Assembly: GCA_016199525.1 (NCBI GenBank)
Contig: JACQGL010000168.1
Span: forward strand, 1-34,891
Source: Armatimonadota bacterium
Lineage (GTDB): Bacteria > Armatimonadota > SYMT01 > JACQGL01
DNA length: 34,891 nt
Direction of reading: 5' to 3'
Positions within the stretch are counted from its first letter, which is position 1; each line of letters starts with the position of its first letter. The translations under genes were made by a program, and so were the position numbers. Shown one piece after another: positions 8,332-24,915 of the stretch. A model generated the notes under the pieces. The model was not told the DNA's origin. It saw only the letters and a list, made by a program, of their open reading frames with translations, and made no database searches.

Positions 8332-8695
8332 GACGGATCTCCAGTTCGGGGCGGACACGCTGCCGCGATCGCTTCAACACGCCCGCGAGGTGTGCGCAGG
8401 CGGTGCCAAGCGGGACGCCGACATCGCCGCGCCCCTATTGTAATGACCGCGAAGGGGGGCGTCAACGCGCGCTACCTCAACCGGCGGAGGACGGGCCACG
8501 CTCCGCGCCGATTCCGCCGCTGTCAGTTTGCTGCTTGACGCAAATGCGAACCTTAGTTTACTATACCTATTATAGGGAGCCGCTTGTGTGCTCAGGCGGG
8601 GCTGCGTCGCCGGGTCCACACGGCGTCCCGCCGTAGACAGCGGGTGAACGACCTCGGCAGGTGGACGGCTGAGCCTGGGATTGGGGAGCACGCAT
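8332..8695. other. Divergent intergenic region between hicB and the TcmP-like gene
   Basis: No gene recognised. The stretch holds an unusually AT-rich block (about 8535-8575) in GC-rich DNA, with a promoter-like pair and a small inverted repeat. It sits between the minus-strand hicBA-uvrB unit and the plus-strand tcmP-DUF5131 unit and so should carry promoters for both. Confidence 0.5.
8535..8564 (+). promoter_or_regulatory. Putative sigma-70-type promoter for the tcmP-DUF5131 unit
   Basis: TTGACG at 8535-8540 is followed after 18 nt by TACTAT at 8559-8564. Just overlapping the -10 is an inverted repeat CTATA-N5-TATAG (8561-8575) that could be an operator. The leader to the ATG at 8696 would be about 125 nt. 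Confidence 0.45.
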
Positions 8696-9808
8696 ATGAG
8701 CACGGATTCATTCTTCGAGCGCCAACGCGAGCACTCGCGCATCAAGGCCGAGATCGTCTCGAAGTACCTGCCAGCATGGGCCAACGTGATGAAGGGGCGC
8801 GCGCGTGGACCGCTCAACTACCTTGACCTGTTCGCCGGGCCGGGCTACTACGAGGATCGTCGCCCCTCAACGCCAATCCTGGCGGTTCAGGCCATTGCTG
8901 CCAGAGACGACCTCGCCAGTCTGGTCCGCACCGTTTTCAATGAGAAGATACCGGCGCGTGCTCAAGCCCTGCGGCAAGCGCTGGATGCGTTGCCAGAGGC
9001 CGCTCGACTGCGCTACCGCCCTCAGGTCTTCCACGGCGAAACCAATGCAGAGCTGGCCGAGGTGCTCCGGAACACGGCTCTGGCCCCCACGCTCGCATTC
9101 ATCGATCCGTGTGGGTACAAGGGCCTCACGCGGGTTCTGGTCCTCGCCATCCTGAAGAACTGGGGATCAGAATGCATCTTCTTCCTCAACTTCGACGCCG
9201 TCCGCCGCGCGCTCCAGAACCTCACTGTCGAGCCGCACATGCAGGCCCTGTTCGGCACCGAGCGAGCGGCAAGGCTGCGCGAGCTGCTCCCTTGCCTATC
9301 CCCGCGCGAGCAGGAACCGACCGTGCTGCGCCACCTGGAAGCGGCGATGAAAGAGGTGGGCGCGCAATACGTGCTGCCGTTCCGGTTGCGGGTGACCGAA
9401 CCGCAGAGGCGTCTCTATCACGTTGTGTTTGTTACGAAGAACGCGCTCGGCCTCAAGATTATGAAAGGGGTAATGTGGAGTGTCAGCACGGACCTCGCAG
9501 CGGGTATCGGATCCTACGAGTACGCTGCCGAAGATGAACGCTGCCCGAGCTTGTTTGAGCCGATAACGCCGGTCGACGACCTGGCACCCGAGCTGCTTCG
9601 CTACTTCGCCGGTCAGACGATCTCCGTCGGGCAGGTGTTTCAGGAGCACCAGACCAGGAGCCCCTATATCGAAAAGCACTACAAGACGGCTCTCCTCGGG
9701 CTGGAGGCAGAGGGGAAGATCACCGTCATCGTTCCTGAGGGGAAGAGGCGTCGGGCCAACACCTTTCCCGATTGGCTGGTCGTCCAGTTCCCTCCCCAGG
9801 AGAGCTGA
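8696..9808 (+). CDS. tcmP: Three-Cys-motif partner protein, TcmP-like
   Basis: The 370-residue product matches TcmP, a family defined by its adjacency to three-cysteine-motif proteins. DLFAGPG at residues 44-50 resembles methyltransferase motif I, and FIDPCGYKG (DPCG at 137-140) resembles motif IV, so a Rossmann methyltransferase-like fold is likely; the reaction is unknown. The C-terminal part (about 285-360: [26 protein letters not shown]) looks like a winged-helix module. The start at 8696 has a GGGGAG ribosome site 7 nt upstream; an in-frame TTG at 8681 is less likely. The stop is 2 nt before the next gene, so the pair is an operon. Such genes often occur in mobile or defence-rich DNA. 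Confidence 0.8.
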
Positions 9809-9810
9809 CC

Positions 9811-10635
9811 GTGGCAGGACCGTCACGCATTGAGTGGACCGAAGCCACTTGGAACCCGGTTACTGGGTGCACAAAGGTGAGCCCGGGCTGCAAGCACTGC
9901 TACGCAGAGCAGCTCGCTCTCCGGTTGCAGGCGATGGGGAAGTGGAGCTACCGCAACGGGTTTGAGGTCACCCTCCAGCCCCAGGTCCTGGAGACACCAC
10001 TGCAGTGGCGCAAGCCGCGCACGATCTTCGTAAACTCGATGAGCGACCTGTTCCATGAACAGGTACCGATAGAGTACCTCTTGCGTGTCTTCGAGGTGAT
10101 GCGGCGCGCGCATTGGCACCGTTTCCAGGTGCTAACGAAACGCTCGGAGCGCCTGGTCGAGCTGAACCCCGTCTTGCCCTGGGAGTCGAACATCTGGATG
10201 GGTGTGAGCGTGGAGTCCGCTAGATACACCTTCCGGATCGACCACCTCCGCCAGACGCGAGCCGCGGTGAAGTTCCTGTCCCTGGAGCCCCTTCTGGAGC
10301 CGCTTCCCGATCTCAATCTATCTGGCATCGACTGGGTGATTGTAGGTGGTGAGTCCGGACCAGGGGCACGACCCATGGACGCCTCGTGGGTTCTGGACAT
10401 CAGGGATCAGTGTGAGAGGGCAGGCGTGCCCTTCTTCTTCAAGCAATGGGGCGGGCGCAACAAGAAGCAGACCGGCCGCCTGCTGGAAGGACGCACCTGG
10501 GATGGGATGCCGGCTGCCCCGAACGGTCGGCGGTGGAAGCCTGATACCCGGGTGTCACCGCCAGGTCAGGCACGGCCTGGCGCCTCTCAACCCGCGCCAG
10601 AGGTGCTCCCGCTGCTCGAATTCTCGCCCGGCTGA
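9811..10635 (+). CDS. DUF5131 / phage Gp37-Gp68-family three-cysteine protein
   Basis: The GTG start at 9811 has AGGAG 8 nt upstream and gives 274 residues. The N-terminal [14 protein letters not shown] is followed by the cysteine cluster C20-x6-C27-x2-C30 ([10 protein letters not shown]), the hallmark of this family. The cluster looks like the iron-sulfur loop of radical-SAM-like proteins. Further family blocks are [34 protein letters not shown] and [16 protein letters not shown], and a PFFFKQWGG end. Function is not established. With TcmP directly upstream this is the known two-gene pairing. No other phage gene is nearby, so this is not evidence of a prophage. Confidence 0.85.
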
Positions 10636-16599: not shown

Positions 16600-19500
16600 A
16601 TGCCTGATCGAGCACAGTACGATGTGATCGTGGTGGGGGCGGGGCCGGCGGGCTGCGCCGCCGCGCTCGGCCTGGCGCGGGCGGGGTTTGGCGTCCTGGT
16701 CCTGGAGGCGGGAGCGTTCCCGGGAGCAGAGAACTGGTCCGGGTGCGTCTACTTCACGGAAGCGCTCGCCGAGCCGGAGCTGCTCGGCCCGGAGGGAGTG
16801 GCAGCGCTCGCCTGGGAGCGGCGCCTGGTGGAGCGCGGCTTCTTCCTCTACGACGGGCGCTCCCTGGCGGGGTTTACCTACCGCAGCCCCCAGGCCTTCC
16901 GGCAGTGCTACACCGTGCTGCGGCCGGTATTCGATCACTCCCTCGCCCGGGCGGCGCAGGCGCACGGCGCCACCCTCCTGTGCGACACCACCGTCGAAGG
17001 GCTGATCCGCGAGGGGGAGCGCGTCATCGGCGTGAGCACCACGCGCGGGCCGTTCTACGCCGACCTGGTGTTCCTGGCCGAGGGCGACGCCGCGCACCTG
17101 GTGGCGAAGGAGGGTTACGAGGCGCCCACCCCGGAGGCACGGCGCTTCCTGCAGGGAATCAAGGAGGTCATCCCGCTCCCTGCGACGGAGATCCAGGCAC
17201 GCTTCCGCCTGGCTCCGGACGAGGGCGCGGCCTATGAAATCCTGCTGCGCAACGCCCGCCTGGGCGGCCGCGAGGCGCGCCTGAATATGGGCGCCTTCCT
17301 CTACACTAATGCGGACACGATCTCGCTGGGCGTCGTCCTGCCTCTGGAGAACCTGGCGGCAGAGCTTTCCGGCGATCCCGACCCGTCGGGACTGATGGAG
17401 TGGCTCAAGAGTCTGCCCGAAGTCCGCGCCTGGGTGGGCGATGCCCCGGCGGCGACCTACGGCGCGAAGATCATCCAGGCGGGCGGCCCACGGCGGGTGC
17501 GGACCTGGGTGGACCACGGCCTGGCCATCGGCGGCGCCGCGGCGGGATTGGGGATCGACTTCCCCTTCCCCAACTACACTGGCCCTGCGTGCGCCTCGGG
17601 GTTGCTCCTGGCGCGGGCCGCGCGTACGATCCGCGCCGCGGCGCGCACATTTACCGGCGAGGAACTGGAGCGCCACTACGCCGCGCCTCTGCGTGAGACC
17701 CATTACTGCCGCGACACCGGGTGGCTCGCACGCTGGCCGGAATACGTGGCGCAGACCCGCTTCTTCTTCGGACCGCTGATCGATTTTGCCACCGAAGCGC
17801 TGGACGTCTGGCAGCGGCCGGACCTCGCGGAAGGCCAGAAAGCGCGCAAGACGGGCGATCTGCTCGCGGGCCTGGCGGCCGTCCCGAAAGCTTTCGGGAC
17901 CGCTGGGACGCTGCGTCAGGAGTTAGGCAGGTTGGGAGCAGCGCTGCCGGTGCGTGAGGCCGTGTTGTACCGGCTGAGACATTACCACCCCTGGGCGCGA
18001 CCCGTGGCGAGGCCGCCGGACGGCCGGCTGGCGTTCCACTACCGCGTGGAGGGCCGCGAAGCGACGGCTCAGGCCCCGGAGGCGCTCCGGCGCGCGCTGC
18101 CGCGCCTCCTCCCAGGGCTCGAGGCCGCCGCCGGCCACGTCTACGCGAACGATCCCGACCGGTCGGGACTGGAGGAGAAGTTCCGCCACGCCGTGGACGC
18201 GGTCTTCGATCGCCTTCGGCCCGGCGACTGGTGGTCTCTGGGGAAGCTGGCGCTGCGAGTAGGTATCGGCGCGCTGGGTGCCCGCGTAATTGGGATCCCG
18301 ACTGCGTCGGGACCCGCGGAGTCCCGAACGCTTTCGGGACGCGGGCCCCGCGATCCGCTCGACCTGGACGCCGCTCCGCAGGCGCAGTCGATCGACGTCA
18401 AGCTGAGTGCCATCCGCTACCAGCCCGCAGCGCCCCACATCAAGCTCTTCTGGCCGCAGGACCTGGCGCACCGGGACCAGATCGCCGCATCGCCCCTGTG
18501 GCACGTCTGCCCTGCGGCGGTCTACCAGCTTCAGAGGGATCCCCAGGCGCTGCTGCGGCCGGTGGTCCACCCTGAGAACTGCGTGAAGTGCGAGTGCTGC
18601 TGGCGCGCCACGGAGGGCGTGGACTGGGGCCGGCCCGGCCGCCACGGGCTGGCTTATCTGCCGCCCACCGCTGCCCGCGAGAAGCTCTGGCGGCAGTCCC
18701 GGCAGTCGCTTCCACCGCCCCCTCCACCCCGCTACGTCGGCGACGGGTGGAAGGACCTGGCGCCGCTGCCCGACGCACCCCCGGAACTCCCGACGTGGTC
18801 GGTACTCCTGGCGGTCCTGGAGGCTGCTCTGCGGCGGGTAGAGGCGACGGTAGCCGCCGAGGAGCGTCCCGACGTAGTCGGGATGGCCCGCGCCGCCTGG
18901 CTGCGCCAGATGGCCCGCTACCCGCAGCGGGTGGCGGAGGAGCTGGAACGGCGGCTGTCCCGATACCCCGAAAGCTTTCGGGGCGCGTTGCCCCTCTGGG
19001 TTGGCCTCTGCCGCTGCCTGGCCTCCGTGGCACGCCACGCCGAGAACGGGAAGTTCTTCTGGGCCGAGGCGGACGCCCGACAGGCACGGCTGCACTTCCT
19101 CCCGGGTCTGCAGTCCCGAAAGCTTTCGGGACTCGGCGCGCCCGCTTCCCCCGAGGACCCCTGGCTGGCAGCGGATTCCCGACCCGCGGAGGAAGCGGCG
19201 TTCCGCCAGGAGTGGCGGACGCGCCTGGACGCCCTCTTCGACCGCCGCGTCTGCCTGGCCCTGGACGCGGGCGAGCCCCCCTCGTGCGAGCAGCGCGCCG
19301 CTCTGCGGGATGCCTGCCGCGCCGCCCCCCTTCCCCCAAAGGGAGAGGAGGGAAAGGGGATATGGCAACGCGCCGCCATCCTGCGCGAACTCGGTCGCGC
19401 CGATCCTGCTCTCGCCTGGGCCGTGGTCGAGCACCTGCGCGCCGCCGACCGTCTGGCGGCTTCTCCAGATCCCACGGCGCGCGCGTGGGCTGCGCGGCTC

Positions 19501-22500
19501 CGCGACGGCGAAGCGATCGCCACTATAGCGGATGGGGACCTCTCCCCCGGCCCCTCCCCCTTCCCGGTGAGGGAAGGGGGAGGGGATGCTAGGTGCTGCG
19601 CCCGCGTGCACCGCGCGCTGGCGGAGGTGGTCCTGATCCCTGGAGAAGAGCAGGACGTGCTGCTGCGCGAGGACGGCCCCGGCGTCCACTGGGAGCCTGT
19701 ACGGACGACCGGCCTGCGGGCCGCCGGCCCCGCGCGCCTCCATCTGAACGGCGCTAAGCCGGAAGCGACGTTCGTTGCCCCACCCGCGGAGGCTACCACT
19801 CTGCCGCTGGCGGCAGTGCGCGACTTCATCGCCGTGGCACTGGGGCTGACGGATCGCCTCTACGAGCGCGCCGTGGAGCAGGTCCAGAGCCGCGTACAGT
19901 TCCCGGGGCTGTTCCAGGATGAAGAGGGCCGCGACGCCATCGCCAAGTTCGGTGCGATGAAGCAGCTCATTGGCGAGATCGATGCCCATCGCATGCTCCT
20001 GGAGACGCTCCTTTACGTGCCCGACGCGGTGGCGACCGCCCCCGACCCTGCCGCGGCGGCTAAAGTCCTCGCTTCGGATGCCCTGGCGACGGACATGGGC
20101 ACGGTGGCCTACAACGCCTGGCAGGTGTTCGGCGGCATGGCCTATACCGCGCAGGACCTGATTGGGAAGTACTACCGCGATGCGAGTGAGTTCCGTTTCC
20201 TGCTCGCGCCGGACCGGTCCCTGAAAGCCTTGCTGGGGGCGGTCCCGAAAGCTTTCGGGACTACGGGGGGCGCCGGTCTGCTTTCCATTGACGACCAGGA
20301 GCGGCTGCTCCGCGCCATACAGCGGGGGCCGCTGGCGTCCGCCGTCCAGGATCTTCAGGCGGCGGCGGACCGTCTGGCGCAGACGGCGACCTCCGACCCG
20401 CAGGCGGTCCTGGACAAGGCGGACACCGCGCTCCTTATCCTGCGCGCGCGGGCGGCGATCCTGCGCGCGGACGCGCGGCTGGAAGCGGGGTGGGATGCGG
20501 AACAGGAAACGGCAGTGGCGCGTGTGGCGGCGGCGGCGGCGCTCCGCCACGCCCTGGGACGCACCAACCGGCGGGCCCGCGAACGGATCGCCGCGGAGCT
20601 GGGCGCGCTGCTCGCGGCGCGTCCCGCTTGCGCAGACGAGCCGTTCGTCCTCGGGATGCCGCCCTCTTTCCCGAGCGATCACCCCTACGAATCGTTCCTG
20701 GAAGCGGCGTGGAGCTACCGTTTCGGCGATTTCCTGGTGCGTCCCTTCGACCGCCAGGCGCCCGCGCTGGTGCCAGAGATGGCGCTGGCAGATGGCCGCC
20801 TTCGCGCCCTCTGGGAGCGCTGGCTGCCGGAGTTCCGCCACCGCTACCGCGAGCAACTCTGGGACGGTCTTCCTTACCCTCGCCTCCTGGCGCGCACGCA
20901 CCGTATTCCCCCGGCAGACCTGGAGTGGCTGCGCGACCAGGGCTTCTTCCGCGTCACCATCCCGCGGGATCTGGATGGGCTGGGGTGGCGGCGCGCCGAG
21001 TACTATCTCCTGTGCCACATCTCGGGCCGGCAGGCGGACATGGCGCAGATGCTCACCCTCCAGGTGAACGATACCCTGGGCACGGTGCCCATCCTCATCG
21101 GCCTGCAGCAGTTGTCGGGCGCCCGGCGGGAGCTGGAGGAATGGCCTGCGGAACCGCCCCGCGCTCTGAACGCGGCTGTGGCCGCGGGCAGATGGGAGAA
21201 GGCGCGGCGCCAGGCAGAAGCGTGGGTGGGGTCGTCGCCGGCGCGGCAAATGGTGGCGGCGCCCCTGCTGGCTGCCCTGCAGTCCCGACACGTCGGGATT
21301 CGGGGGGGCGATGGAGCGGCGAGCGATCTGGTGCGGGCCGCCCTGGCCGCCATCCCCGATCCCGAAAGCCTTCGGGACGCCCTCCTGGCCGAGCTGGACC
21401 GCCGCGAACGCGCCCACCGGCTCTACCTGCGGCTTATCGCCCACGGGTTCATGACTGCCTTCGGCCTTACCGAGCCCGGGGCTGGATCGGATACCGCCCG
21501 TATCACCACTCGCGGCACGCTACGCCGCGTGGAGGTGCTTACCGACGCGGACGGGGTCCGCTACTTCCTCTGGAATAGCGAGCGCCGCCACCTGCTCGAT
21601 GCGGAGCGGCTGGAGTTCGTGGGGGATACGCTCTGTTACCGCTACGCCGACGACGCGCCCTCCGCCCCCATCGACTTCAGCGGCTATGACTACGAAACTG
21701 ATACCGGCGGGCGCGCTTACCAGCACGGGAGCCACCGCGTGGCGTTCCACGACATCGCCCAGATCCGGCGTGAGAACGGCAGCGAGTTCTACGAGTTCTA
21801 CGAACTCTCTGGTGCAAAGCTATGGATCACCAACGCGCGCTGGTCGCGGGTGATGTGCCTCTATGCCCGCACGGAGGAGGGCCTGACGGCGTTTATGGTG
21901 GACCGCCACGCCGAGGGGCTGATCGTCAACCGGGATGAGCCGAAGGTCGGACAGTTTGGCTCGGTGACGAACCCGCTGACCCTGGATCGCGTGCGTGTGC
22001 CGCGGGAGAACGTTATCGGCCTGGAAGGTCGCGGCCAGAACAACGCGCTGGAGACGCTCAACCAGGGGCGCGCGGGCCTGGCGCTGGCGTGCGTGACGCT
22101 GATGGAGGAGATCCTGGAAGAGGCGCGTCAGCAAATCGCGGGCCATCCCGAAAGCCTCCGAGACGGCGGAGCGGCGCTCCTGGGCGAAGCCGCCGCGCTT
22201 GCCTTCGCCTCGGAGGCGATCACCTGGGAGCTGATCGGTCTTCTGGACCACCCCGGCTGCGGGGCGGCGCGGATGGAGAGCGCCATCGGCAAATACTTCG
22301 CCTCGGAGGCTCTCCAGGAGGTGCTTACCGCCGCAGAGACGCTCGTCGGCCCCACCGCCCACCTGGCTCCCAACGATCTAGAGCGGAAGCGCGCCGACTG
22401 CCGCATCATCCCCGTCTACGAGGGAACCAACCAGGTACAGCGGTTCGCCATCCTGCGTGACCTACTGGGCGAGGTGCTCCCCCGCTGGGAGGCGGCCCCG

Positions 22501-24915
22501 ACTGCGTCGGAAGAGGATCTGACTCCGCTGGGCCGTCTGAAGCGGGAGCTAATGCTGCGCGCGCGGCGCGCTCGGGAGGCGTTCGGTGAGGAAGCGTGGC
22601 GCAACGGCAACCTGCAAACCGTTTTCTTCCCCCTGGCGGAGGTCGCTGCATACGTGAAGGTGGCGGAGGCCGCGCTCCGGCGGGCCACGTGGGTGGAGAA
22701 CCACTGCGGTTCCGATCCCGACTGCCGCTGGGGCCGCCGGGCACGGCTGGCGGCGGATCTGTTTGCGGAGCGCGCCCTGGCAGCGGGCCAGGAGAGGCTG
22801 ACGCAGCACGACGCCACTTTCCAGCAGGCGCGGGACGGCTTCTATCCCGATGAAATCGGAATCGGCGACCTGGCGCTGAAGGCGTGGGAGCACAGGCGTG
22901 CCCCCGAGAGGACGCGCCCGCTCGTATCTGCCGAGCGGCGCGTCCCGATCCCGATTACATCGGGAGGACCGGCGTTCACCGTCGCCGTGGTCGCATGGCC
23001 GGCGCCGGTTCTGTCCGCCGCTCCAGTTCTCCACGAGGGCACCCTGCACGAGCCATTCTACGACTGGCCTGCGGGAGACCGCGGCGCACTGGCCGCTGTG
23101 GCGGCGGTGAAGCAGGCCGCGCCCGTCCGGGCGCGGATCGTCCTGTTGCTGCCCGCTGTCGGTCCGTGGGAAGAGGCTGCCCGCCAGGCGCGTGCCCTGG
23201 GGGTGGACGAGGTGGTGCCGCTTGGGACGACGGGAGAACCACCCGCGCCAGAAGCTCTGGCCGCACGGGCGGCGGCGGAGGCGCGCGGGCGAGGCGCTGC
23301 GCTCATCCTCTGCGGCGCCGGCCGGCCCGAACTGGGGGATACCTCGTTCCCGTTCCTGCTTGCCGGGCACCTGGACGCCGTGTGCGTGGCCGGGGTCAGC
23401 GAGTGCGCCGTGGAAGCCGACGAGACCGGCCTGCGGATCCAGGCGCGCATTGCCGGAGGGATTGTCCAGCCGGCGGCGCCTGCGGTCCTGGCGTTCGCCG
23501 AGCGGGAAGCGTCGCTGGCCACCACCGCTCGCGGATGGCTGGCCGCGCTGGCAGAGCCGCTTCCGGAGCCGGCAGCGCCCCTCCTGCCCGGGGACGGCGT
23601 ATACGCGTTCCCGGCGGGAGTCGCTGGTCCACAAACGCGCGGCGTTCTGCCTGCGGATCCCGACGCAGTTGGGACCCCCGAGCGGGCCGCCGCCCTGGTG
23701 ATGGACCTGCTCGGTCTCGGGAACGGCCACGGCCCGCCGGGAGGGGAGCGCTCGCCAAGACGCCAAGACGCCAAGACACAGGCAGAGGGAGGCCTGCCAT
23801 CTGGGACGGTAACGCGGGTGGATCGCTGGCCTGAGGGGCCGGCGGTGGTCTTCGTGGCCGCCGCGGTCCTCCCGATTTCATCGGGATCGGGACGCCGCGT
23901 GGAGATGGAGGCAGCCACCGCCGCCGCGGAGCTGGCAACGGCGCTCGGGCTGCCGTTCCAGGCCCTGATCTTCGGCCCCGGGGAGACGGGACGACTGGTA
24001 GCCCCACTGGCGGACCTGGGAGCGGTACTGGTGGTCCGCGCCTGGTCCCAGGGGCTGTCCGGGCGCGTGGATCCGGAAAGCGCGCCGGAGAGCCTGGCGG
24101 CGGCGCTCTGCGCTGTGTTTGGGAATCCCGACTGCGTCGGGACGCCCCGGTGGCTGGTCGCTCCCCTGGAACTCACGCCGGCGCTCGCCAGGGCGGTCCC
24201 GACTGTGTCGGGACCGGGCTACCGCATCGCCGCCGACGTAACCGGGCTGGCGGTGCAGGGAGATGCGGTCACCGTCGCAACACGCGCCTTCGACGGCCGC
24301 CTCCGCTACCACCGCACGCTGGAGAAAGTGGGCGGCTGGCGGCTCATCACCGTCGCGCCCGGGGTGGTTGTGAGCAACGGCGCCCCCCTCCCGCTGCGAG
24401 CAGGCACGGCGCCCGTGGTCGGCGAGATTGACCTGCCGCTGCTCTCGGGGGATGGCGCCCGCGCCGTTCCGGCTTCATCGAGACCCGCCGACCTCGCCCA
24501 GGCGGAGTGCATCATCGACGTAGGCTACGCTGTGCGCAGCCGCGACGACATAGAACGGATCGTTCGGCCGCTGGAGGAGCAACTGCGCGCGCTGGGGGCA
24601 CGTGAGGTGCGGATTGGCGGCACGCGGAAGGTGACGGAAGAACTGCGACTGCTACCTGTGGAGTGCCAGATCGGCCAGACAGGGGTGCGTGTCAATCCCG
24701 TGGTGCTGATCGCGCTGGGCGTATCCGGGGCGCCGCAGCACCTAGGTTATATTGGGGAGCGCGCGACCATCATCGCGTTCAACCGCGATCCCGAGGCGCC
24801 TCTCCTCACCCTCAACCAGCGCCAGCCCACACCGCGCGTCTACCCTGTGGTCGGGGATCTGTTCGAGACCGTGCCGCGGTTTGTGGAAGCGCTGAAGAAA
24901 GACGCGGGGCGTTAG
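16600..24915 (+). CDS. Giant fusion: ETF-quinone oxidoreductase, two acyl-CoA dehydrogenase domains, ETF-beta and ETF-alpha
   Basis: A single frame of 2771 residues. Residues 1-690 are ETF:quinone oxidoreductase: FAD motif GAGPAG at 13-18 and the 4Fe-4S cysteines C637, C661, C664, C667 (CPAAV...CVKCECC). Residues about 730-1212 resemble acyl-CoA dehydrogenase (VFGGMAY 1176-1182, YYRDA) but lack the YEGT glutamate. A helical linker runs 1216-1345. Residues about 1372-2115 are a full acyl-CoA dehydrogenase: TEPGAGSD 1624-1631, KLWITN 1740-1745, YEGTNQ with catalytic E1941. About 2124-2370 is ETF-beta-like. About 2410-2771 is ETF-alpha with the FAD-domain motifs QIGQTG 2690-2695, GVSGAPQHLG 2707-2716 and NRDPEAP 2728-2734. 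The parts would carry electrons from acyl-CoA to quinone at the membrane. The ATG at 16600 follows GGGGACAGGA; an in-frame TTG at 16588 is less likely. About 20 short palindromes interrupt it in frame. Confidence 0.9.
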   Translation: MPDRAQYDVIVVGAGPAGCAAALGLARAGFGVLVLEAGAFPGAENWSGCVYFTEALAEPELLGPEGVAALAWERRLVERGFFLYDGRSLAGFTYRSPQAFRQCYTVLRPVFDHSLARAAQAHGATLLCDTTVEGLIREGERVIGVSTTRGPFYADLVFLAEGDAAHLVAKEGYEAPTPEARRFLQGIKEVIPLPATEIQARFRLAPDEGAAYEILLRNARLGGREARLNMGAFLYTNADTISLGVVLPLENLAAELSGDPDPSGLMEWLKSLPEVRAWVGDAPAATYGAKIIQAGGPRRVRTWVDHGLAIGGAAAGLGIDFPFPNYTGPACASGLLLARAARTIRAAARTFTGEELERHYAAPLRETHYCRDTGWLARWPEYVAQTRFFFGPLIDFATEALDVWQRPDLAEGQKARKTGDLLAGLAAVPKAFGTAGTLRQELGRLGAALPVREAVLYRLRHYHPWARPVARPPDGRLAFHYRVEGREATAQAPEALRRALPRLLPGLEAAAGHVYANDPDRSGLEEKFRHAVDAVFDRLRPGDWWSLGKLALRVGIGALGARVIGIPTASGPAESRTLSGRGPRDPLDLDAAPQAQSIDVKLSAIRYQPAAPHIKLFWPQDLAHRDQIAASPLWHVCPAAVYQLQRDPQALLRPVVHPENCVKCECCWRATEGVDWGRPGRHGLAYLPPTAAREKLWRQSRQSLPPPPPPRYVGDGWKDLAPLPDAPPELPTWSVLLAVLEAALRRVEATVAAEERPDVVGMARAAWLRQMARYPQRVAEELERRLSRYPESFRGALPLWVGLCRCLASVARHAENGKFFWAEADARQARLHFLPGLQSRKLSGLGAPASPEDPWLAADSRPAEEAAFRQEWRTRLDALFDRRVCLALDAGEPPSCEQRAALRDACRAAPLPPKGEEGKGIWQRAAILRELGRADPALAWAVVEHLRAADRLAASPDPTARAWAARLRDGEAIATIADGDLSPGPSPFPVREGGGDARCCARVHRALAEVVLIPGEEQDVLLREDGPGVHWEPVRTTGLRAAGPARLHLNGAKPEATFVAPPAEATTLPLAAVRDFIAVALGLTDRLYERAVEQVQSRVQFPGLFQDEEGRDAIAKFGAMKQLIGEIDAHRMLLETLLYVPDAVATAPDPAAAAKVLASDALATDMGTVAYNAWQVFGGMAYTAQDLIGKYYRDASEFRFLLAPDRSLKALLGAVPKAFGTTGGAGLLSIDDQERLLRAIQRGPLASAVQDLQAAADRLAQTATSDPQAVLDKADTALLILRARAAILRADARLEAGWDAEQETAVARVAAAAALRHALGRTNRRARERIAAELGALLAARPACADEPFVLGMPPSFPSDHPYESFLEAAWSYRFGDFLVRPFDRQAPALVPEMALADGRLRALWERWLPEFRHRYREQLWDGLPYPRLLARTHRIPPADLEWLRDQGFFRVTIPRDLDGLGWRRAEYYLLCHISGRQADMAQMLTLQVNDTLGTVPILIGLQQLSGARRELEEWPAEPPRALNAAVAAGRWEKARRQAEAWVGSSPARQMVAAPLLAALQSRHVGIRGGDGAASDLVRAALAAIPDPESLRDALLAELDRRERAHRLYLRLIAHGFMTAFGLTEPGAGSDTARITTRGTLRRVEVLTDADGVRYFLWNSERRHLLDAERLEFVGDTLCYRYADDAPSAPIDFSGYDYETDTGGRAYQHGSHRVAFHDIAQIRRENGSEFYEFYELSGAKLWITNARWSRVMCLYARTEEGLTAFMVDRHAEGLIVNRDEPKVGQFGSVTNPLTLDRVRVPRENVIGLEGRGQNNALETLNQGRAGLALACVTLMEEILEEARQQIAGHPESLRDGGAALLGEAAALAFASEAITWELIGLLDHPGCGAARMESAIGKYFASEALQEVLTAAETLVGPTAHLAPNDLERKRADCRIIPVYEGTNQVQRFAILRDLLGEVLPRWEAAPTASEEDLTPLGRLKRELMLRARRAREAFGEEAWRNGNLQTVFFPLAEVAAYVKVAEAALRRATWVENHCGSDPDCRWGRRARLAADLFAERALAAGQERLTQHDATFQQARDGFYPDEIGIGDLALKAWEHRRAPERTRPLVSAERRVPIPITSGGPAFTVAVVAWPAPVLSAAPVLHEGTLHEPFYDWPAGDRGALAAVAAVKQAAPVRARIVLLLPAVGPWEEAARQARALGVDEVVPLGTTGEPPAPEALAARAAAEARGRGAALILCGAGRPELGDTSFPFLLAGHLDAVCVAGVSECAVEADETGLRIQARIAGGIVQPAAPAVLAFAEREASLATTARGWLAALAEPLPEPAAPLLPGDGVYAFPAGVAGPQTRGVLPADPDAVGTPERAAALVMDLLGLGNGHGPPGGERSPRRQDAKTQAEGGLPSGTVTRVDRWPEGPAVVFVAAAVLPISSGSGRRVEMEAATAAAELATALGLPFQALIFGPGETGRLVAPLADLGAVLVVRAWSQGLSGRVDPESAPESLAAALCAVFGNPDCVGTPRWLVAPLELTPALARAVPTVSGPGYRIAADVTGLAVQGDAVTVATRAFDGRLRYHRTLEKVGGWRLITVAPGVVVSNGAPLPLRAGTAPVVGEIDLPLLSGDGARAVPASSRPADLAQAECIIDVGYAVRSRDDIERIVRPLEEQLRALGAREVRIGGTRKVTEELRLLPVECQIGQTGVRVNPVVLIALGVSGAPQHLGYIGERATIIAFNRDPEAPLLTLNQRQPTPRVYPVVGDLFETVPRFVEALKKDAGR
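17376..17391. repeat. Dispersed palindrome, 4-nt-centre form, in coding sequence
   Basis: TCCCGA-CCCG-TCGGGA with exact arms. Read in frame it gives DPDPSGL (residues 259-265 of the fusion protein). Confidence 0.8.
17881..17900. repeat. Dispersed palindrome, 6-nt-centre form, in coding sequence
   Basis: Perfect 20-bp palindrome GTCCCGAAAGCTTTCGGGAC. In frame it encodes VPKAFGT (residues 428-434) in the ETF-quinone oxidoreductase part. Confidence 0.92.
18153..18168. repeat. Dispersed palindrome, 4-nt-centre form, in coding sequence
   Basis: TCCCGACCGGTCGGGA is a perfect 16-bp palindrome. In frame it encodes DPDRSGL (residues 518-524). Confidence 0.88.
18296..18312. repeat. Dispersed palindrome, 5-nt-centre form, in coding sequence
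   Basis: TCCCGA-CTGCG-TCGGGA with exact arms. In frame it encodes IPTASGP (residues 566-572). The next copy begins only 9 nt later, giving a composite of two elements. Confidence 0.88.
18322..18339. repeat. Dispersed palindrome, 6-nt-centre form, in coding sequence
   Basis: TCCCGA-ACGCTT-TCGGGA: exact arms, one changed centre base. In frame it encodes SRTLSGR (residues 575-581). Confidence 0.88.
18788..18804. repeat. Dispersed palindrome, 5-nt-centre form, one arm mismatch
   Basis: TCCCGA-CGTGG-TCGGTA. In frame it encodes LPTWSVL (residues 730-736), at the junction between the oxidoreductase part and the first dehydrogenase-like domain. Confidence 0.65.
18867..18883. repeat. Dispersed palindrome, 5-nt-centre form, in coding sequence
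   Basis: TCCCGA-CGTAG-TCGGGA with exact arms. In frame it encodes RPDVVGM (residues 756-762). Confidence 0.87.
18966..18983. repeat. Dispersed palindrome, 6-nt-centre form with compensated end pair
   Basis: CCCCGAAAGCTTTCGGGG, a perfect 18-bp palindrome in which the outer arm pair is C/G rather than T/A. In frame it encodes YPESFRGA (residues 789-796). Confidence 0.9.
19112..19133. repeat. Dispersed palindrome, 6-nt-centre form, longest perfect copy
   Basis: A perfect 22-bp palindrome with the AAGCTT centre. In frame it encodes SRKLSGL (residues 839-845), a different phase from the copies at 17881 and 18966. Confidence 0.93.
19326..19359. repeat. Imperfect C-rich/G-rich hairpin in coding sequence
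   Basis: A CCCCTTCCC-type run pairs imperfectly with a downstream GGGAAAGGGG run. In frame the segment reads PLPPKGEEGKG, a low-complexity insert in the first dehydrogenase-like domain. It resembles the longer hairpin at 19551. Confidence 0.55.
19551..19585. repeat. Perfect 15-bp-stem GC-rich hairpin inside coding sequence
   Basis: CCCCTCCCCCTTCCC (19551-19565) pairs perfectly with GGGAAGGGGGAGGGG (19571-19585) around a GGTGA loop. In frame the region reads LSPGPSPFPVREGGG. Peptides of the LSPGPSP type are a familiar by-product of a widespread GC-rich hairpin repeat read through in many genomes. Confidence 0.88.
20242..20261. repeat. Dispersed palindrome, 6-nt-centre form, in coding sequence
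   Basis: Perfect 20-bp palindrome GTCCCGAAAGCTTTCGGGAC, identical to the copy at 17881. In frame it encodes VPKAFGT (residues 1215-1221), between the first dehydrogenase-like domain and the helical linker. Confidence 0.93.
21283..21298. repeat. Dispersed palindrome, 4-nt-centre form, in coding sequence
   Basis: TCCCGA-CACG-TCGGGA with exact arms. In frame it encodes SRHVGI (residues 1562-1567). Confidence 0.82.
21360..21377. repeat. Dispersed palindrome, 6-nt-centre form, in coding sequence
   Basis: TCCCGA-AAGCCT-TCGGGA: exact arms, one centre change. In frame it encodes DPESLRDA (residues 1587-1594), shortly before the TEPGAGSD motif. Confidence 0.85.
22146..22163. repeat. Dispersed palindrome, decayed 6-nt-centre copy
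   Basis: TCCCGA-AAGCCT-CCGAGA: the right arm has two changes. In frame it encodes HPESLRDG (residues 1849-1856), in the C-terminal helical part of the active dehydrogenase. It shares the AAGCCT centre with the copy at 21360. Confidence 0.65.
22496..22512. repeat. Dispersed palindrome, decayed 5-nt-centre copy
   Basis: CCCCGA-CTGCG-TCGGAA: one change per arm, but the centre CTGCG is identical to the copies at 18296 and 24126. In frame it encodes APTASEE (residues 1966-1972). Confidence 0.6.
22845..22861. repeat. Dispersed palindrome, 5-nt-centre form, one arm mismatch
   Basis: TCCCGA-TGAAA-TCGGAA. In frame it encodes YPDEIGI (residues 2082-2088). Confidence 0.5.
22949..22965. repeat. Dispersed palindrome, 5-nt-centre form, at a domain junction
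   Basis: TCCCGA-TTACA-TCGGGA with exact arms. In frame it encodes IPITSGG (residues 2117-2123), exactly at the seam between the active dehydrogenase and ETF-beta. Confidence 0.87.
23658..23674. repeat. Dispersed palindrome, 5-nt-centre form, inverted orientation
   Basis: TCCCGA-CGCAG-TTGGGA, one arm mismatch. The centre CGCAG is the reverse complement of CTGCG, so this copy appears inserted in the opposite orientation. In frame it encodes DPDAVGT (residues 2353-2359). Confidence 0.7.
23753..23776. repeat. Three tandem copies of CGCCAAGA in the ETF-beta/ETF-alpha linker
   Basis: CGCCAAGA occurs three times head to tail. The 24 bp keep the frame and encode a basic stretch (RRQDAKTQ) in the linker between ETF-beta and ETF-alpha. 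Confidence 0.85.
23870..23886. repeat. Dispersed palindrome, 5-nt-centre form, in coding sequence
   Basis: TCCCGA-TTTCA-TCGGGA with exact arms. In frame it encodes LPISSGSG (residues 2424-2431), near the start of the ETF-alpha part. Confidence 0.87.
24126..24142. repeat. Dispersed palindrome, 5-nt-centre form, in coding sequence
   Basis: TCCCGA-CTGCG-TCGGGA, identical to the copy at 18296 but in another phase. In frame it encodes NPDCVGT (residues 2509-2515). Confidence 0.9.
24197..24213. repeat. Dispersed palindrome, 5-nt-centre form, in coding sequence
   Basis: TCCCGA-CTGTG-TCGGGA with exact arms. In frame it encodes VPTVSGP (residues 2533-2539). Confidence 0.88.

Follow-up and report, generated by a model that had tools for sequence, protein, structure and literature searches.

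Background

ETF is the textbook mobile carrier that links dehydrogenases to the respiratory chain. In the classical chain, as described in the available text of PMC11153573, acyl-CoA dehydrogenase, ETF and ETF:quinone oxidoreductase (ETF-QO) are separate proteins, ETF is diffusible, and the dehydrogenases are homotetramers or homodimers. The same part of that source also describes alpha2beta2 dehydrogenases, in which the active site is divided between the partners. In the FixABCX/EtfABCX systems (PDB 7koe; Azotobacter, PMC5861303, in part), the subunits are separate and NADH-driven bifurcation takes place in EtfB, the ETF-beta subunit, which carries the bifurcating flavin. The nearest fusion that we met in the literature is the butyryl-CoA reductase (BCR) of Fusobacterium nucleatum, according to the accessible part of PMC12288474.

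In the present study, we analyzed a stretch of 34,891 nucleotides from an Armatimonadota metagenome assembly (GCA_016199525.1, contig JACQGL010000168.1), hereafter the window. A preliminary description had proposed that one polypeptide encoded in the window carries acyl-CoA dehydrogenase, ETF-beta, ETF-alpha and ETF-QO, an arrangement for which it knew of no described protein. Our literature search agrees with the latter statement within its limits: no fusion of this type was found in the openly available full-text papers searched, and the available parts of PMC5861303, PMC12288474, PMC2700814 and PMC2702500 do not describe such a chain.

A single reading frame

Translation of the window confirmed the uninterrupted frame of 2771 codons at positions 16600-24915 of the plus strand (coding region 16600-24912, stop codon 24913-24915); the sequence upstream of the ATG at 16600 is 'gacagga'. 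The probability of 2771 stop-free codons, calculated from the base composition of the ORF itself, is about 1e-22. When the ORF was divided into nine blocks of 300 codons and a last, shorter one, the GC content of codon positions 1, 2 and 3 showed a high-low-high pattern in all 10 blocks. Furthermore, in four pairs of relatives the third codon positions were the most variable in 40 of 40 comparisons of a module or a linker, which argues for translation across every seam. A chance ORF is ruled out by the above probability and by the single frame found in 15 of 20 other genomes (see below). An antisense ORF at 17923-21444 is taken as a shadow of the GC-rich coding DNA.

The source of the window is a metagenome assembly, the ORF contains 15 palindromic elements, and one relative shows a frame change; the gene might thus be an assembly artefact or a decaying pseudogene. 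However, 15 of 20 independent genomes have the gene likewise in one frame, an open frame of this length is expected by chance at only about 1e-22, and the cofactor motifs are undamaged. At the level of the family, the frames of the relatives and the codon-position pattern contradict such an origin, which we consider extremely improbable.

Misbinning of the contig is also unlikely, as judged from Lon of the window compared with 14 genomes (two of them without a match). Its identity to same-phylum copies is 66% (G003) and 61% (G014), with 74% across a 325-residue piece in same-phylum G001 and 46-58% for the remaining same-phylum copies. Copies from elsewhere have 49-57% identity over nearly the full length, and a piece of 509 residues in a Verrucomicrobia genome (G153) has 60%. 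Elsewhere in the window (8681-10635, plus strand), adjoining genes encode domains of the GMT-like wHTH and DUF5131 types and are unrelated to the fused gene.

Modules of the fused protein

The modules of the protein, all encoded on the plus strand, are arranged from the N- to the C-terminus as follows: an FAD/quinone oxidoreductase of the FixC type (residues 1-400, 16600-17799), a linker (residues 401-600, 17800-18399), a FixX-like 4Fe-4S module (residues 601-690, 18400-18669), acyl-CoA dehydrogenase-like domain 1 (residues 690-1215, 18667-20244), acyl-CoA dehydrogenase domain 2 (residues 1395-1965, 20782-22494), a diverged ETF-beta (about residues 2120-2345, 22957-23634), and ETF-alpha (residues 2380-2771, 23737-24912). 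The proposal of four components on one polypeptide is thus supported, and this order is shared as one frame in four other groups named below. The motifs listed in the preliminary description, namely GAGPAG (residues 13-18), Cys 637, 661, 664 and 667, QIGQTG, GVSGAPQHLG and NRDPEAP, were all found in the translation.

Pfam models of FAD oxidoreductases matched the N-terminus of the window protein, which is nearest to the PRK10015/FixC subfamilies of NCBIfam (matches below the curated cut-offs) and has FixC of EtfABCX as its best PDB match (7koe_C, 6.2e-28). The Gly residues 13, 15 and 18 are conserved in all 15 members with letters there; Cys 661, 664 and 667 of the FixX-like module are found in 16 of 16 full-length members, and Cys 637 in 15, with one unknown letter in the sixteenth. 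An FAD-binding FixC domain and a 4Fe-4S Cys cluster, as expected of an ETF-QO or FixCX module, are therefore both present, and the FAD/4Fe-4S oxidoreductase proposed previously can be specified as one of the FixC plus FixX type. In domain 2, the middle (1709-1798) and C-terminal (1810-1955) models of acyl-CoA dehydrogenase matched above the cut-off. For domain 1 of the window copy the match of PF00441 was modest (9.1e-8), and the model matched 14 of 16 members. At the C-terminal end, the ETF-alpha FAD domain was found at residues 2631-2715; PF00766 matched the ETF-alpha region of 16/16 members, Gln2690, Ser2709 and His2714 are conserved in all of them, and the profile of this region gave 2.1e-29. 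No ETF model of Pfam matched the ETF-beta region of the window protein alone; PF01012 matched this region in 13 of 16 members.

Both ETF-beta and domain 1 are diverged, and profiles of the 16 members identify both: the ETF-beta profile matched EtfB structures at 1.1e-24 and that of domain 1 matched acyl-CoA dehydrogenase structures at 1.5e-8. The ETF pair is accordingly represented by an ETF-alpha FAD domain with its motifs and by an ETF-beta recognized through the family profile. An AlphaFold model of the ETF part (mean pLDDT 75.0, pTM 0.66) led by Foldseek to EtfA and EtfB, and one of the tandem dehydrogenase (mean pLDDT 78.5, pTM 0.76) to acyl-CoA dehydrogenases, these being matches of the tandem as a whole, not assignable to one dehydrogenase domain.

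For the linker between FixC and FixX, ten of the 16 members have a Kyte-Doolittle maximum of 1.8 or higher, compared with 1.36 in the window copy, where a possible membrane segment is weak. The linkers of the relatives L109, L108, L110, L107 and L114 contain strongly hydrophobic stretches of 19 residues. Such a stretch is a possible transmembrane anchor, and the hydrophobicity of the linker is only suggestive of quinone reduction at the membrane.

Two complementary dehydrogenase domains

The motifs of the two dehydrogenase domains were counted as alignment columns in the 16 full-length members beside four canonical dehydrogenases, all four of which have every motif. In domain 1, R, Q and F of RxQF (R1098-x-Q1100-F1101 in the window copy) and Q, G and G of Q-x-x-G-G (Q1175-x-x-G1178-G1179) are found in 16/16 members, whereas the Glu of YEGT is found at the aligned column in none. 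Conversely, in domain 2 all 16 members have Y, E, G and T, with the catalytic-type Glu1941 in YEGTN, as well as W-I-T, but none has the full RxQF; of the Q-x-x-G-G columns, Gln is found in one member, the first Gly in 16 and the second Gly in none. A regular-expression search for Q-x-x-G-G in domain 2 gave 2/16, off the aligned column, and the column counts were used instead. Domain 2 therefore has the fold and the catalytic Glu of an acyl-CoA dehydrogenase and lacks RxQF and Q-x-x-G-G, and domain 1 lacks the catalytic Glu despite the match of PF00441 in 14/16 members. The preliminary description had counted two dehydrogenase-type domains. The catalytic Glu is found in one of them only, and the other looks like a partner half.

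In canonical acyl-CoA dehydrogenases, RxQF and Q-x-x-G-G are presumably the partner-subunit contacts that bind FAD in trans. Given the reciprocal loss of motifs, the simplest reading is that the pair forms a pseudo-heterodimer within one chain, with a single composite FAD site. Domain 2 would bind the substrate and the flavin ring and provide the catalytic Glu, and domain 1, in place of a partner subunit, would contribute the residues that bind this FAD at its ADP end. The complementary motif pattern of the two domains is the new point of the present analysis. The distribution of motifs resembles the division of labour between alpha and beta in heterotetrameric steroid dehydrogenases: as far as can be judged by sequence alone, partners with complementary active and ADP-binding sites, as in alpha2beta2 enzymes, are found in 16 of 16 members, although the two halves lie in a single frame and not in two separate subunits.

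Occurrence in other genomes

Relatives from the same phylum have separate genes without the fusion; no fused frame was listed for 40 relatives, and an earlier pattern search gave 24 stretches, none of which is a relative. The possibility that the fusion is common in its own phylum was rejected, since one of 291 genomes matched at E 1e-35, namely the window genome itself. The 40 relatives and the 24 stretches had first suggested that the fusion is private to this genome. This was overturned by a scan of 84,980 species genomes with a degenerate DNA pattern for the domain 2 motif F-x-V-D-R-H-A-E-G, which gave 41 stretches, 20 of them encoding the fused family; the other 21 either had no match or weakly matched dehydrogenases or ETF encoded as separate proteins. 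According to their record titles, the 20 other carriers comprise nine Planctomycetota, five Nitrospirae, four Acidobacteria and two Verrucomicrobia, so that the chain is no peculiarity of a single assembly.

The domain order recurs in a single open frame in 15 of these 20 genomes (2504-2921 codons, measured from stop to stop or from the contig end). In the other five, the contig ends (G155, G160 and G167), a run of N stands at the break (G157) or the frame changes (G166). As for the apparent split into two genes in two Nitrospirae, the break in L115 contains a run of N, and L116 shifts the frame. Among 372 genomes around a Planctomycetota carrier (G170, itself included), eight match domain 2 at E 1e-35; six are new, four of these lying in frames of more than 2600 codons, as judged from domain 2 only. 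Among plasmids, none of the 1298 matching records contained a site at which 80% of the query was covered.

In a tree of the 16 full-length members, the window copy forms a long branch between a clade of seven Planctomycetota (support 100) and the rest, and midpoint rooting places it beside this clade; one Planctomycetota copy (G169) clusters with Acidobacteria. Gene neighbours, compared as raw open frames, are shared mainly among close relatives. An ABC-transporter-like frame near the gene is common to the window, L103 and L106, and a pilin-like frame to the window and L108. Taken together, these sequence comparisons support an architecture reading in which the fused chain represents a cross-phylum family with a putative composite dehydrogenase.

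Palindromic elements in the gene

Stop-free palindromes of the form CCCGA-N(0-9)-TCGGG occur 15 times in the ORF (window 17377-24212) and three times in the other 26.6 kb (4207, 4873 and 28541), the Markov expectation being 0.5 and 0.94, respectively. Genome-wide there are 553 such elements against 42 for a reversed control, and their density in the ORF is about 12 times that of the genome. Seven of the 15 overlap residues that are absent from at least 80% of 15 relatives and the other eight do not, compared with 6.2% of random 6-residue windows as a control. Since these seven fall in parts of the protein that are missing from most relatives, some of the short elements seem to have entered the gene in frame. 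In-frame insertion of palindromic elements into genes has been reported for Rickettsia (PMC3733652, in the part available). Further clusters were observed at 1869-2789 of L125 (G000:C7), where four of four palindromes lie within one 779-codon open frame of the minus strand, and at 2408-4754 of L124 (G000:C23). Two stretches of the PLPPKGEEGKG and LSPGPSPFPVREGGG types, which resemble in-frame inserts of longer repeats, are found at about 19546-19590 and about 19786-19830 of the window (residues near 983 and 1063; positions approximate).

Possible function

The most probable reading, to which we assign a probability of roughly 0.7, is that the protein is a single-chain acyl-CoA:quinone oxidoreductase with paired dehydrogenase domains and a tethered ETF-alpha that acts as a relay to quinone. 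The FAD that domain 2 binds with the help of domain 1 would receive electrons from an acyl-CoA and hand them on to the FAD of ETF-alpha. This tethered domain would shuttle back and forth, linking the dehydrogenase with FixC/FixX, whose FAD and 4Fe-4S cluster would deliver the electrons to membrane quinone, probably menaquinone. In agreement with this reading, the window genome has one thiolase and one enoyl-CoA hydratase above the cut-off, and a menaquinone-biosynthesis gene (PF02621) is located 3.8 kb upstream of the fused gene in the window. Points against it are the poor conservation of ETF-beta, which has no Pfam ETF match in the window copy, the weak hydrophobic linker of that copy (1.36), the separate genes of the same-phylum relatives, and the separate dehydrogenase matches of other carriers (see below). 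The wider proposal of a cross-phylum group of approximately 300-kDa single-chain acyl-CoA:menaquinone oxidoreductases, each with a one-flavin pseudo-heterodimer, a mobile tethered ETF-alpha head and a membrane quinone reductase, appears somewhat better than an even bet.

An alternative possibility is a polyprotein, a single translation product whose cleavage would release individual proteins with the classical mode of action. The linkers are long and variable and the modules look like whole classical proteins. However, the dehydrogenase site is apparently split over two domains, in a sequence pattern that needs no free partner, and coding constraint extends over the linkers; we regard cleavage as unlikely and expect that the chain would stay whole. 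Slightly less likely still is a bifurcating complex similar to FixABCX/EtfABCX, or a chain that runs in reverse, as an enoyl-CoA reductase driven by quinol or NADH, a direction with which the sequence is compatible. The FixC/FixX-type quinone module, with FixC of EtfABCX as the best PDB match of the N-terminal part, is consistent with such a function. On the other hand, ETF-beta has no invariant column in the 16 members, and its consensus, compared at that level, lacks the motif stretch of solved EtfB, which speaks against bifurcation but is not proof. Instead of an ordinary fatty acyl-CoA, the substrate may also be an unusual one, such as an acyl group that is branched-chain, steroid-like or bound to a carrier. 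In line with this, long insertions distinguish domain 2 from the canonical enzymes (alignment judged by eye), and the thiolase of the window genome adjoins a 2-oxoacid dehydrogenase E2. We consider an unusual substrate improbable.

When the whole protein was searched against its own genome (88% complete) at E 1e-3, no other dehydrogenase or ETF was found, and the only two FAD-oxidoreductase matches were to the N-terminal part. If the single-chain reading is correct, the chain would operate in this genome with no pool of free ETF. In the other carriers, a separate dehydrogenase match was found in 17/20 and a separate ETF-alpha match in 2/20 (E 1e-12), and the fusion is therefore one route among others in these genomes. 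Channelling in place of diffusion and a 1:1:1 stoichiometry are predicted consequences of the architecture. With substrate oxidation and quinone reduction joined in a natural covalent chain that has a single copy of each centre, the motion of ETF could be measured intramolecularly. Such a chain would furthermore show a route from a homo-oligomeric enzyme to an intramolecular pseudo-heterodimer and provide a natural design for tethered electron transfer between flavoenzymes.

Comparison with known systems

The fused protein shares its module families with the classical system of acyl-CoA dehydrogenase, ETF and ETF-QO, and probably the overall redox route; it differs from this system in having two unlike dehydrogenase domains in one chain. 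With FixABCX/EtfABCX it shares a FixC/FixX-type quinone module together with ETF subunits (PMC5861303, in part), but it has an acyl-CoA dehydrogenase pair in the chain and an eroded ETF-beta. In ChsE4-ChsE5 of Mycobacterium tuberculosis (PDB 4x28), as described in the available part of PMC11153573, the Glu with the flavin-ring site and the ADP-ribose contacts are on different partners, as proposed here for the two domains of the fused protein; this enzyme is, however, encoded by two genes and comes without an ETF or quinone module. The accessible text of PMC12288474 describes BCR as having one dehydrogenase domain and a rubredoxin at the end, without ETF-beta, FixC or FixX, and as working with a flavodiiron protein; as in the fused protein, its dehydrogenase is covalently linked to the C-terminal part of EtfA.
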